A stretch of 64,000 nucleotides of DNA, from contig NZ_CP084472.1 in NCBI RefSeq assembly GCF_020405225.1, forward strand, positions 3,968,001 through 4,032,000. Direction: 5' to 3'. Below, piece after piece: positions 3,852-54,518 of this stretch. Source of the DNA: Natrinema sp. DC36. Lineage in GTDB: Archaea > Halobacteriota > Halobacteria > Halobacteriales > Natrialbaceae. The notes beneath the pieces were generated by a model. The model had not been told where the DNA came from, ran no database searches, and was given only the letters and a program-made list of their open reading frames with translations. Each line of letters begins with the position of its first letter. Within the stretch, counting starts at the first letter, position 1. The position numbers and the translations under genes are program-made.

Positions 3852-3995
3852 CTCTACTGAAGCTTAGGAGACAACGGCTCTTATTTCCCTGACATTTTCA
3901 CTAACTCACTGTGTTTTGATTAACTGGGAGAATCAATCTACGTTCAGTTTGCACACGTAGTTGCCGTTCAGTATAGGCGAAGAAGTGTACACTCA
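3852..3995. other. AT-rich intergenic spacer
   Basis: A low-GC stretch between the small Cys-pair gene and the repeat element. It has T-runs (CATTTTCACTAAC near 3894, TTTTGATTAAC near 3914) that could hold the promoter of the minus-strand gene at 3851. No coding potential seen. Confidence 0.4.
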
Positions 3996-4117
3996 CCGCG
4001 AGCGAACCGAGTGAGCGAGCGGGCCGACGACCGACCCGTAGGGGAGGGAGGAGTGCTTTTAATCAACATTTTGCCGAGCGACCGAGCGCTAGCGAGGGAG
4101 CGCAGAGCAAAATGCTG
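3996..4117 (+). repeat. Modular intergenic repeat, copy A (diverged, partial)
   Basis: The copy starts with the subunit CCGCGAGCGA-N7-GAGCGAGCGG at 3996-4022. It continues with the core GGGCCGACGACCGACCC and GGGGAGGGAGGAGTGCTTTT (4021-4060) that also occurs at 46.26 kb and 52.96 kb. It ends with a TTTTGC / GCAAAA pair at about 4069-4112 that encloses a GC-rich stem. Compared with the other copies it lacks the 5' hairpin module and the two internal 8-9 bp hairpins. A 70-codon minus-strand reading frame across it is an artefact of the repeat. Strand is given as the orientation that matches the other two copies. Confidence 0.85.
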
Positions 4118-27273: not shown

Positions 27274-27284
27274 CAGCGATTGTA

Positions 27285-27425
27285 CCGCGAGCGAACGGAG
27301 TGAGCGAGCGGCCTTTTTGGTCTCTTTGCGAATAGTACGGGACCTCTGGTCCCGCATACCGTGCGAACGGCACTTCGTGCCGTGAGCAGACGAAGTGAGC
27401 AACGATCAGCGAGAGCGATGCTCTC
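27285..27425. repeat. Hairpin array including a GA-type subunit
   Basis: CCGCGAGCGA-N7-GAGCGAGCGG (27285-27311), followed by a T5 run, starts 12 nt after the dph6 stop. Then come CGGGACC-TCT-GGTCCCG (27338-27354), ACGGCAC-TTC-GTGCCGT (27367-27383) and GAGAGC-GAT-GCTCTC (27411-27425). The loops are 3 nt. The first subunit plus T-run could act as a transcription terminator for dph6. Confidence 0.8.
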
Positions 27426-45264: not shown

Positions 45265-46085
45265 CTCGAGTGAGCGGCGACGAGAACGCGGACGGCGGGG
45301 CGGAGACCGAGGCCGACACCGAGACCGACGCGGAGGCCGAGGGCGGCGACGACCGCGTCCCGGTGTTGCTCGTCCGCGGCGACCGCGAATACCTCGTGAA
45401 ACCCGGTGGAGAGCAGGGGACCGACCTCGGCGTGCTCGAGGTCCCCGAGGACGTGCAGTCGGGCGACACCATCGAGACGCATCTGGGCGACGAGTTTCAC
45501 GTCCGCCGACTGCGGGGCCCGGATCTCTTTCACCAGTTCGAGCGGACGGGCGCGCCGATGGTCCCCCGCGATATCGGCCTCGTGATGGGCGAAACGGGGA
45601 TCGCTCGCGGTGATCGGATCCTCGACGCCGGGACCGGAACCGGCGTCCTGGCAGCGATGATGGCCCGCGCCGGCGCGTCAGTTGTGACCTACGAGCGCGA
45701 CGCCGAGTTCGCGGAGGTTGCCCGCGAGAACATGGCGCTGGGCGGCGTCGAGGATGCCGTCGACGTTCGAACGGGTGACGTGCTCGAGCACCTCGACGAC
45801 CTCGAGCCGTCGTCGTTCGACGTGTGCACGCTCGATACGGGCGACGCGCCCGCGATGGTCGAGCACGCGCCGGAGCTGCTCGTCGACGGCGGGTTCCTCG
45901 CGGTCTACAGCCCGTTCATCGAGTCGACTCGAGCGGTCTCCGAGACCGCTCGAGAGGTCGGCCTCTCGGACGTCACCACTCGAGAGACGATCCAGCGGGA
46001 GATGCAGTTCGACGAACGGGGTTCGCGGCCGTCGACCGCCCCCGTGGGCCACACGGGATATCTGACGATCGCGCGCAACGAATAG
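45261..46085 (+). CDS. trmI: tRNA (adenine-N1)-methyltransferase, TrmI-like
   Basis: 274 residues. After an acidic N-terminal stretch of about 30 residues, the small N-terminal domain of TrmI ([17 protein letters not shown]) precedes a SAM domain: [35 protein letters not shown], then [22 protein letters not shown]. It methylates A57/A58 of archaeal tRNA. GTG at 45261 overlaps the NAC stop; GTG at 45270 is an alternative. The NAC-TrmI pairing is common in haloarchaea. Confidence 0.9.
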
Positions 46086-46155: not shown

Positions 46156-46400
46156 GTGGCCGAGAGCGGGCTCCGAGCACCGCGAGGAGCCCGCGATCCG
46201 GGGGAGGGCAGGCCGTTACCCAGCCATTGACCGCGAGCGAACCCGAAGGGTGAGCGAGCGGGCCGACGACCGACCCAACGGGGAGGGAGGAGTGCTTTTC
46301 ATCGAAGCTAAGCGGGATCGAAGATCCCGCGAGGTCCGAGAGAGCTTCGCTCTCTCGAGATTTTGCCGAGGGCCAGCTTTGCTGGCCCGCAGCGCAAAAG
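46156..46400 (+). repeat. Modular intergenic repeat, copy B (full)
   Basis: Order of modules: hairpin with an 11-nt loop (46167-46193); GA-type subunit CCGCGAGCGA-N11-GAGCGAGCGG (46231-46261); core with GGGGAGGGAGGAGTGCTTTT (46280-46299); hairpins GCGGGATC-GAA-GATCCCGC and CGAGAGAGC-TTC-GCTCTCTCG; then TTTTGC / GCAAAA enclosing GGGCCAGC-TTT-GCTGGCCC. The block 46252-46373 is identical over 122 bp to 52954-53075. It lies between trmI and the TFS gene, which converge. Confidence 0.92.
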
Positions 46401-46404
46401 TTCG

Positions 46405-46713
46405 TTAGTTATCATCCTCGCGCCACTTGTGCTCACACTCGGTACAGATAAAGAAGCGCGTCTCGGACTCGTCGGCCGATCGGATCTGTTGCATGTACCA
46501 GAGGGCGCGGTCGTTATTACACTCGGGACAGATGGCGTTCGTCTCGGGCAGGGAGGTCTCGCCGGAGGACTCGATGACTTCGCTCGCTTCCTGATCGTCG
46601 GTGACGGTGTACTCGGAGGCATCGCCTTTCGGCTTCGTAAAGCCACAGCTGTCGCACGCCCAGAGCCCGTCGTCGGCTTTCATCATCGAACCGCAGTCGT
46701 CGCAGAATTCCAT
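46405..46713 (-). CDS. tfs: Transcription factor S (TFS, RpoM-like)
   Basis: 102 residues. The N-terminal zinc ribbon (CDDC ... CDSC) and a C-terminal TFIIS-type ribbon (CPEC ... CTEC) include RSADESETRFF, which holds the acidic DE pair that stimulates RNA cleavage in backtracked RNA polymerase. Length is standard. Start MEFCDDCGSMMKADDG at 46713. Its stop is 4 nt from the end of the modular repeat, so its mRNA would run into the repeat. Confidence 0.96.
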   Translation of the reverse strand: MEFCDDCGSMMKADDGLWACDSCGFTKPKGDASEYTVTDDQEASEVIESSGETSLPETNAICPECNNDRALWYMQQIRSADESETRFFICTECEHKWREDDN

Positions 46714-52858: not shown

Positions 52859-53102
52859 GTGGCCGGGAGCGGACTCCGAGCACCGCGAGGAATCCGTGAC
52901 CCGGGGAAGGGCAGGCGGTTCACCGATATTCACCGCGAGCGAGGCTGGAGGCCGAGCGAGCGGGCCGACGACCGACCCAACGGGGAGGGAGGAGTGCTTT
53001 TCATCGAAGCTAAGCGGGATCGAAGATCCCGCGAGGTCCGAGAGAGCTTCGCTCTCTCGAGATTTTGCCGAGGGCGCGGCGAAGCCGCGCCCGCAGCGCA
53101 AA
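52859..53102 (+). repeat. Modular intergenic repeat, copy C (full)
   Basis: Same module order as the copy at 46.2 kb. The first hairpin (52870-52896) has one covarying and one broken pair relative to that copy. The GA-type subunit is CCGCGAGCGA-N11-GAGCGAGCGG (52933-52963). 52954-53075 is identical over 122 bp to copy B. The last hairpin differs completely: GGGCGCGGC-GAA-GCCGCGCCC. The element ends 9 nt before the stop codon of the geranylgeranyl reductase gene. Confidence 0.92.
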
Positions 53103-53111
53103 AGTTCGCTG

Positions 53112-54518
53112 TTAGTACTTTGGGTCAGCCCCGGTCGTCTCGTAGACCTTCTCCATGAGTTCGTCGCGGCGGTCCTGCCAGCCCGCGAGTCCCGCGGGGC
53201 TGGTCGGATAGTTCTCGTAGTGGGCGAGCAGTTCGTCGGCGCGGCGCTTGGTCCGGTAGAGGTTCCAGATGGTTCCCCAGTGACCGCGACTCTTGACCAG
53301 GGCCTCGAGTTTGAGTTTGAGCCCGATGTCCGTGCTGCCGGAGTACAGCGCTTCGGCGAGTTTGTCGCCGGGCATCGCGGCGAGCAGTCCCATCAGGTCG
53401 TCGACGTCGACGGCCGTCGAGAGGATGTTGTAGACGTCCAGCGCGGCGTAGCGCGCGCCGAAGTGCTCCATCACCTTCTCGTTGTACGCCCAGAAGGTGT
53501 CCTCGCTGTAGTCGCCGGTCTCGAGGGCCTCGATGGCCTGCTCGGCGGCGTACTTGCCGCCGTAGGCGGCACCGGCGATGCCGCCGCCCGTGGTCGGGTT
53601 GACGTGGCCGGCGGCGTCGCCGATGGCCATGTAGCCCGGATGGACGGCGGAGTCGTAGGGCCGCCGAGTGGGTAGCGCCGCGCCGAGTTTGTCCTCGACT
53701 TCGGCACCCTCGAACTCGGGGCGGTTCTCGAGGTCGCGTTTGAGGTCGTCGACTAATTGCATCGGCTCCTCGGTCATCTGGAAGCCCAGGCCGGCGTTGA
53801 TCTCGGTGTCGGTCCGCGGGAAGTACCAGAGGTAGCCCGCCGCGCGCTCGGTGGGCTTGAAGACGAGTGCGTCGTCCCATTCGACGGGGTCCTCGACGTG
53901 AACGATCTCGCGGTAGGCCGAACAGAAGTGACTGTAGTTGACGTTCGTGTCGAACGTGGAGTCCGAAAAGTCGACGTTGTCCTGGAGCACCGACAGCGAG
54001 CCCGCGGCGTCGATGACGATATCGGACTCGTACTCGAGCGGCTCCCCCTTGCGGATCGTCTCGACGCCCGTGACGCGGCCGTCGTCGTTCTGGACGACGT
54101 TTTTGACGACGGTGTCGTAGTGAAAGTCGACGCCGGTGTCTTCGGCGCCGTCGATGATCCGCCGGCCGTACTCCCACCGGTCGATGACGGCGAGCTCGCC
54201 CGGGACCGGAATCTCGAGGACGGTGTCCTCCTGTGGAATCTCGAAGCGACCGTGATCGACGCCGGTGTTGGTGAAGGCCGGCTCGAGTTTCGATTTCGGA
54301 ATCGCCTCGGGGAAGGCGTCGGCACCCTTCAGCGCGTCCCCGCAGGCGATGTGGCCGGCTTCGGTCTCGGACTTTCGCTCGAGGACGACGACGTCGTACC
54401 CTTCCCGTGCGATGGTCGCTGCGGCGTAGCACCCTGCAGTGCCGGCTCCGACGACGACAGCGTCCGGCGACTGCGTTCCCGTCGTCGTAGTAGCGGCCGA
54501 CTGTTCCTGCGTACTCAT
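53112..54518 (-). CDS. Geranylgeranyl reductase-family FAD protein
   Basis: 468 residues. N-terminal FAD motif AVVVGAGTAGCYAAATIAREGYDVVVLERK, then GHIACGDALKG, and GYMAIGDAAGHVNPTTGGGI, the second FAD contact. It probably saturates the isoprenoid chains of archaeal lipids (geranylgeranyl groups). Start MSTQEQSAATTTTGTQ at 54518. The C-terminal ~100 residues are helical and end ETTGADPKY. It is divergent from a 2Fe-2S ferredoxin, a possible electron donor. Confidence 0.9.
   Translation of the reverse strand: MSTQEQSAATTTTGTQSPDAVVVGAGTAGCYAAATIAREGYDVVVLERKSETEAGHIACGDALKGADAFPEAIPKSKLEPAFTNTGVDHGRFEIPQEDTVLEIPVPGELAVIDRWEYGRRIIDGAEDTGVDFHYDTVVKNVVQNDDGRVTGVETIRKGEPLEYESDIVIDAAGSLSVLQDNVDFSDSTFDTNVNYSHFCSAYREIVHVEDPVEWDDALVFKPTERAAGYLWYFPRTDTEINAGLGFQMTEEPMQLVDDLKRDLENRPEFEGAEVEDKLGAALPTRRPYDSAVHPGYMAIGDAAGHVNPTTGGGIAGAAYGGKYAAEQAIEALETGDYSEDTFWAYNEKVMEHFGARYAALDVYNILSTAVDVDDLMGLLAAMPGDKLAEALYSGSTDIGLKLKLEALVKSRGHWGTIWNLYRTKRRADELLAHYENYPTSPAGLAGWQDRRDELMEKVYETTGADPKY

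Follow-up and report, generated by a model that had tools for sequence, protein, structure and literature searches.

A modular, structured intergenic element of haloarchaea with features of a transcription terminator between convergent genes

In archaea, a run of T residues is usually thought sufficient for transcription termination. Experiments in Haloferax volcanii showed that a T-stretch terminated 95% of transcripts in vivo, and hairpins occur near 503 mapped ends (PMC7237163). The motif published for H. volcanii consists of a stretch of T that ends in C; a hairpin often lies upstream of it, and it lacks a long conserved structured domain. SPRITE repeats in Streptococcus pneumoniae are terminator-like interspersed repeats that are enriched between convergent genes and lie near gene 3' ends, and their authors suggest co-option as terminators (PMC3049150). 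BOX repeats of the same species and the BIMEs of Escherichia coli are modular intergenic mosaics of structured blocks (PMC3049150, PMC2267715). Palindrome-associated transposable elements (PATEs) of the haloarchaeon Haloquadratum walsbyi are short and non-coding, and carry palindromes near both ends that resemble IS605-type ends (PMC3119063).

The window analyzed here is a stretch of 64,000 nucleotides from the genome of Natrinema sp. DC36. It contains two full copies and one shorter copy of an intergenic element that we interpret as a modular transcription terminator/insulator, located mainly between convergent haloarchaeal genes. Termination is inferred from sequence, and we assign this reading a probability of roughly 60%. 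Modular intergenic repeats and T-stretch terminators are already known, and the element family itself has no match in Rfam.

Judging by their descriptions rather than by compared sequences, the pneumococcal SPRITE and BOX repeats would be nearest in kind. Like SPRITEs, the haloarchaeal element is interspersed, has a terminator-like fold, is enriched between convergent genes and sits at gene 3' ends. However, SPRITEs are bacterial, differ in sequence and consist of one 18-bp duplex plus a U-rich tract, whereas the haloarchaeal element has three to six modules with tandem G-A motifs and a class-wide spread. It resembles BOX repeats and BIMEs in being a mosaic of structured blocks, but BOX varies in size with its modules, whereas the haloarchaeal element swaps hairpins between fixed linkers. 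We know of no sequence likeness between it and BOX or BIME repeats. With the H. volcanii terminators it shares an intergenic T-run at the 3' end (T4 in 73/78 copies, or T5-T6 in a simpler form called type II). The features in the window are as follows.

46158..46404, + strand: full copy 1, matching covariance model R1 at 140.9 bits; address intact in 24/29 congeneric genomes.
Ends at 46085, + strand: methyltransferase-like gene, the left neighbor of copy 1.
46405..46713, - strand: TFS-like gene (archaeal TFIIS/RPB9-type zinc-ribbon), from the list of open reading frames and named by reading its sequence; its stop adjoins copy 1.
46158..46201, + strand: module A, hairpin GGCCGAGAGC...GCGATCCGG, with two-sided compensatory changes in 9/16 pairs across copies.
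46200..46212, + strand: conserved purine-rich linker GGGGGAGGGCAGG, almost invariant in alignment A2.
46230..46261, + strand: module B, hairpin CCGC-GA-GC-GA...GA-GC-GA-GCGG with two tandem G-A motifs, whose G and A occur in 20 or 21 of 21 sequences.
46262..46295, + strand: module C, helix GCC-GA-C-GA-CY-GA-NNN...NNN-GA-RG-GA-G-GA-GUGC with three tandem G-A motifs, whose positions are kept in 21/21 sequences.
46296..46303, + strand: T-run TTTT(N)ATC immediately 3' of helix C, the proposed 3'-end or termination region.
46307..46360, + strand: optional two-hairpin insert that splits the 5' arm of hairpin D into halves, also present in, for example, loci L051, L061 and L071; most copies lack it.
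46361..46404, + strand: module D, terminal hairpin TTTTGCCGAG...CGCAGCGCAAAAGTTCG, with covarying arms and T4 on either strand of its stem.
52861..53108, + strand: full copy 2, matched by R1 at 52861-53051 (147.3 bits) and 53057-53108; address of type I in ~21/29 genomes and type II in four.
52861-52904, 52903-52915, 52932-52963 and 52964-52997, + strand: module A, linker, module B and module C of copy 2.
52998-53001, 53009-53062 and 53063-53108, + strand: T4, insert and module D of copy 2.
46252..46373, + strand: 122-bp block of copy 1 that matches 52954-53075 exactly and is interpreted as a tract of recent conversion.
52954..53075, + strand: partner of that block in copy 2.
3995..4112, + strand: short-class copy (copy 3), with B at 3995-4022, C at 4023-4056, T4 at 4057-4060 and D at 4069-4112, without A.
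27284..27320, + strand: reduced relative just 3' of a + strand gene's stop codon, in which CCTTTTTGG directly follows hairpin B; weak R1 match of 25.5 bits.

The identity between the two full copies, which was reported in an initial annotation of this DNA, is exact and sharply bounded: 122 bp match without a mismatch, and the adjoining base on each side differs. The flanks diverge as that annotation described, such that the two copies are only 89% identical over the longer 1-249 alignment. It was also right about the order of the modules and in placing both full copies between converging genes. Its distance of 4-9 nt from the minus-strand stop depends on where the element is taken to end. Hairpin D of copy 1 ends at 46404, immediately before the stop codon TTA at 46405-46407, and that of copy 2 ends at 53108, leaving 3 nt to the TTA stop of the minus-strand gene whose end is at 53112. 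The two hairpins that it called fixed are the optional insert at 46307-46360. Its third copy, a supposed core at 3996-4117, is genuine and is better drawn at 3995-4112, where modules B, C and D are present and A is missing.

The three copies counted at that stage underestimate the family. The host genome has 22 matches to the 14-base core GGAGGAGTGCTTTT with at most one mismatch, compared with three for a reversed control pattern, and a 255-bp query returned 65 pieces. Three core matches lie in the window, versus none in 100 shuffles; these counts, together with a covariation score far above that of shuffled alignments, exclude chance as the source of the repeat. The repeat is therefore a member of a genome-wide family with ~20 copies in the Natrinema genome, rather than a pair, and the proposed search for further copies has revealed a class-wide spread. 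A single segmental duplication giving rise to only three copies, the outcome named as fatal to the idea of a family, is ruled out, because each full copy occupies its own ancestral address that is common to most congeneric genomes.

When copies are compared side by side, the linkers are fixed and the hairpins are exchangeable. The consensus order is A (GGCCGGGAGC...GACCCGG), the purine linker GGGGRAGGGCAGG, B (CCGCGAGCG...CGAGCGG), C (GCCGACGACYGA...GARGGAGGAGUGC), TTTTNATC, the optional two-hairpin insert and D (NNNNTTTTGCCGAG...CGCAGMGCAAAANNNN). The fold derived from alignment A2, which comprises 21 full copies from several congeneric genomes, has 52 pairs that are 96.9% paired, with two-sided changes in 21 pairs. 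Its covariation score is 0.341, compared with 0.157 +/- 0.009 for shuffles and at most 0.09 when partners are slid. Compensatory changes affect the pairs flanking the tandem G-A motifs of module B, the Y/R and NNN/NNN pairs of helix C, and the arms of hairpin D (including G-C to A-U at 8/21). Pairs contain 34 G-U combinations against 5 A-C ones, and in 35/36 copies the more stable fold is that of the + strand; both results indicate that the + strand is the folded strand. The tandem G-A positions of B and C, unchanged in 20 or all 21 of the sequences, would read as C-T mismatches on the opposite strand. T4 follows helix C in 73/78 copies of a multi-genus sample that was collected with a pattern making no demand for a T-run, and copies without module A still keep B, C and the T-run. 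A long-range helix RAGGGCA/UGCUUUU predicted by RNAalifold is not claimed; it is invariant, without covariation, and UGCUUUU is equally kept in copies that lack the partner. At locus L040, hairpin D is inverted relative to the remaining element, as though its arms had recombined.

Copies are closely tied to gene ends, as determined with gene calls from a home-made codon-usage script that may be wrong in single cases. Among 59 copies from six congeneric genomes, the 3' end of the element is at most 8 nt from a minus-strand stop codon in 35/49 cases, with 16 touching it, and in an independent multi-genus sample the 3' arm is within 5 nt of such a stop in 29/36 copies. Neighboring genes are convergent in 29/55 and 32/62 cases in two samples, versus 26/169 element-free pairs (p ~1e-5 even with element-bearing pairs pooled into the background). 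By itself, convergent enrichment can also arise where insertions are tolerated. What stays constant is the convergent gene on the right. In 16/55 cases, the gene on the left lies on the minus strand as well, leaving no + strand mRNA upstream. Stop codons that touch the element are TAA or TAG in 27/29 cases, compared with 105/224 in the background. At the end of the TFS gene in 30 genomes of the taxonomic family (L323-L352), the stop is TAA or TAG where the element adjoins and mostly TGA where it is missing. Acquisition of the element thus seems to touch the stop codon, to judge from these sequences.

If the element is a terminator, transcription of the + strand would yield an RNA that folds as hairpins A and B, followed by the G-A-rich helix C. 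RNA polymerase would next meet T4 and then another T-run, located in the D stem, and would halt there instead of producing antisense RNA across the right-hand gene, the stop codon of which adjoins the element. Hairpin D, immediately behind that stop, has a T-run on the minus strand too and probably ends or caps the right-hand mRNA. Termination is suggested by the T4 that follows helix C, by the type II form, in which a hairpin with T5 or T6 and T-runs on both strands occupies the same address, by a minimal hairpin B with T5 after a stop codon elsewhere in the window, and by T-stretch termination in vivo in H. volcanii (PMC7237163). Decayed copies retain hairpin D beside the stop codon, suggesting that D serves the right-hand gene. 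Counting against termination, the minus-strand T-run of type I is only T4 and is positioned before hairpin D, not after it. The sequence tested in H. volcanii was T5C (PMC7237163), and the T4 of the element is weaker. The hairpin B with T5 at 27284-27320 seems to be a minimal form related to the element.

More than 30 invariant bases exceed what a plain terminator needs, so helix C and the linkers may serve a further purpose, for example to bind a factor. That helix C, and not just the T-run, is highly conserved hints that this helix is recognized by a protein or by the polymerase.

The addresses of the element are stable, but their contents are not. Of 29 congeneric genomes read at the TFS-like address, 24 have an intact element, two or three have a decayed one and two have none. 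The second address holds type I in ~21 of these genomes, type II (GAGCGGCCTTTTTTGGTCGAGATTTT...) in four and remnants in one or two, and is empty in two. For twelve further copies, 23/24 orthologous addresses are occupied in the two closest relatives. Orthologs are 94% identical in their flanks, 85% in A, 82% in B, 70% in C and 57% in D, and the value for hairpin D compares with 56% between unrelated copies in one genome. Among 14 compared paralogs, the longest identical block is the 122-bp one, the next is 65 bp and the median is 20. Because addresses are stable while contents diverge, we read the 122-bp identity as a product of gene conversion involving two addresses that are both old. The simplest account of the swapped modules would be ectopic gene conversion between copies, although selection for changed modules may be another. 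Such conversion, primed by the invariant linkers, would swap hairpins among copies, and the 122-bp block would record a single recent event across the 6.7 kb that separate the two addresses. Published work calls haloarchaea highly recombinogenic (PMC3988388). Within the element at locus L134 (genome G001), which lies upstream of the second address, there is an insertion whose ends GTGTTTACCCCC...GGGGGTAAACAC are inverted, and GATCGAAA is repeated on both sides of it.

The foremost alternative is a non-autonomous mobile repeat (PATE, MITE or REP-like) that transposes and is tolerated at gene ends without a host function, which we consider unlikely. The ~20 copies per genome and the patchy occurrence between genera at the TFS gene, where the element adjoins 10/30 sequences from 6/17 genera outside Natrinema, would suit such a repeat, but occupancy of 23/24 addresses common to two close relatives and of one address in 24/29 genomes indicates low mobility, and old copies are still under structural constraint. 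Like PATEs (PMC3119063), the element is short and non-coding and has palindromes near both ends (hairpins A and D) without a terminal inverted repeat or target duplication. However, these hairpins are unlike the ends of the five tnpB elements in the genome, since the five tnpB loci yielded no R1 match and only short BLAST matches to hairpins, and their ends are unrelated by eye; an IS605/tnpB guide-RNA or end remnant was rejected on these grounds. At L303 and L304, tnpB elements of the genome carry a different conserved palindrome, GGCGCTAAG.CCCCTTCCTCA...GGGAGGGGATACAGCGCC. A near-identical short subclass on both the chromosome and contig C2 also fits a mobile repeat, but no cleanly empty site bearing a target duplication turned up, and none of 50,697 phage records contains a match, which likewise dismisses a phage origin.

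Neither the full copies nor their orthologous addresses showed terminal inverted repeats or target-site duplications, the hallmarks of MITEs. The earlier view that the element does not look like a MITE stands for these copies and fails for the third one. Near-identical relatives of copy 3 occur at loci L036, L037, L048 and L049, one of them on contig C2, and the short class (3995-4112, these four loci and L069) lies within a larger repeat with diverged inverted ends (~GTAGCACGnTTTCTTTATTCAGA). Very similar flanks at L308, L312 and other loci carry a different cassette (GCGGCCTTTTTAGCGTAGATTTTTG). By its sequence, the context of the short class is a MITE-like carrier with exchangeable, terminator-like cargo.

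It is less likely still that the element works as RNA within the 3' UTR of the + strand gene, in which a protein bound to the G-A-rich helix stabilizes, localizes or regulates the mRNA and termination is incidental. This explanation would account for the folding of the + strand and for the conservation of GGCCGACGACYGA...GARGGAGGAGUGC across genera beyond a terminator's need, but it leaves without an upstream + strand mRNA the 16/55 copies whose left gene is on the minus strand, and it predicts neither the constant right-hand partner nor the substitution of the simpler hairpin-T5/T6 form at the same address. An independent family of trans-acting small RNA genes with their own promoters, which the compact stable fold, with a z of -3.9, and the many copies might suggest, is highly improbable, given that no conserved promoter-like stretch was seen at a fixed upstream place in the copies read, that copies lacking A retain B, C and the T-run, and that position is tied to gene ends.

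The preferred terminator reading concerns a family that extends well beyond Natrinema. The core pattern was found in 24/25 congeneric genomes searched, with 1-23 matches, and at the same stringency in 0/16 genomes of other families. Covariance model R1 detected relatives in 175/292 haloarchaeal genomes and 58/77 genera, with copy numbers per genome that are at-least values because only scored candidates were counted. A phylum-wide sample gave R1 matches in 23/247 genomes, with the same order throughout among the matches listed. Carriers include Natrinema, Natronorubrum, Haloterrigena, Natronococcus, Natrialba, Halovivax, Natrarchaeobius, Halostagnicola, Haladaptatus, Halobacterium and Halomarina. 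In genera beyond Natrinema, B, C and the T-run persist and A may be missing; the primary sequence of helix C, GGCCGACGACYGA...GARGGAGGAGUGC, is strongly conserved across genera. Ten plasmid records carry pieces of the element without annotation in the record table.

Searches of the window and a copy against Rfam found no family at or above the gathering score. One weak match to a viral cis element (opposite strand, E 0.25, below gathering), the sole one among four loci, was attributed to chance, as was a Micromonospora match (L164) that reads as coding sequence and has no R1 match. The window contains no tRNA or tmRNA. The open-licence literature yielded no paper describing the family, and an earlier description in subscription journals is possible. 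The element family is unnamed and widespread in haloarchaea.

A bolder version of the terminator reading, which we regard as speculative and doubtful, is that B, C and U4 constitute a class-wide haloarchaeal RNA domain, a specific 3'-end signal whose structure the polymerase or a termination factor recognizes. Its hairpins would be cassettes swapped between fixed addresses so rapidly that they are randomized between species whose neighboring genes are 94% identical.

If the proposed reading is correct, a widespread and unnamed haloarchaeal 3'-end element with a conserved G-A-rich fold would be defined, providing a concrete structured archaeal terminator to test. The copies would also preserve naturally occurring traces of ectopic gene conversion in haloarchaea, with addresses kept and modules exchanged, and annotation would improve, for example in plasmid records that carry pieces of the element.
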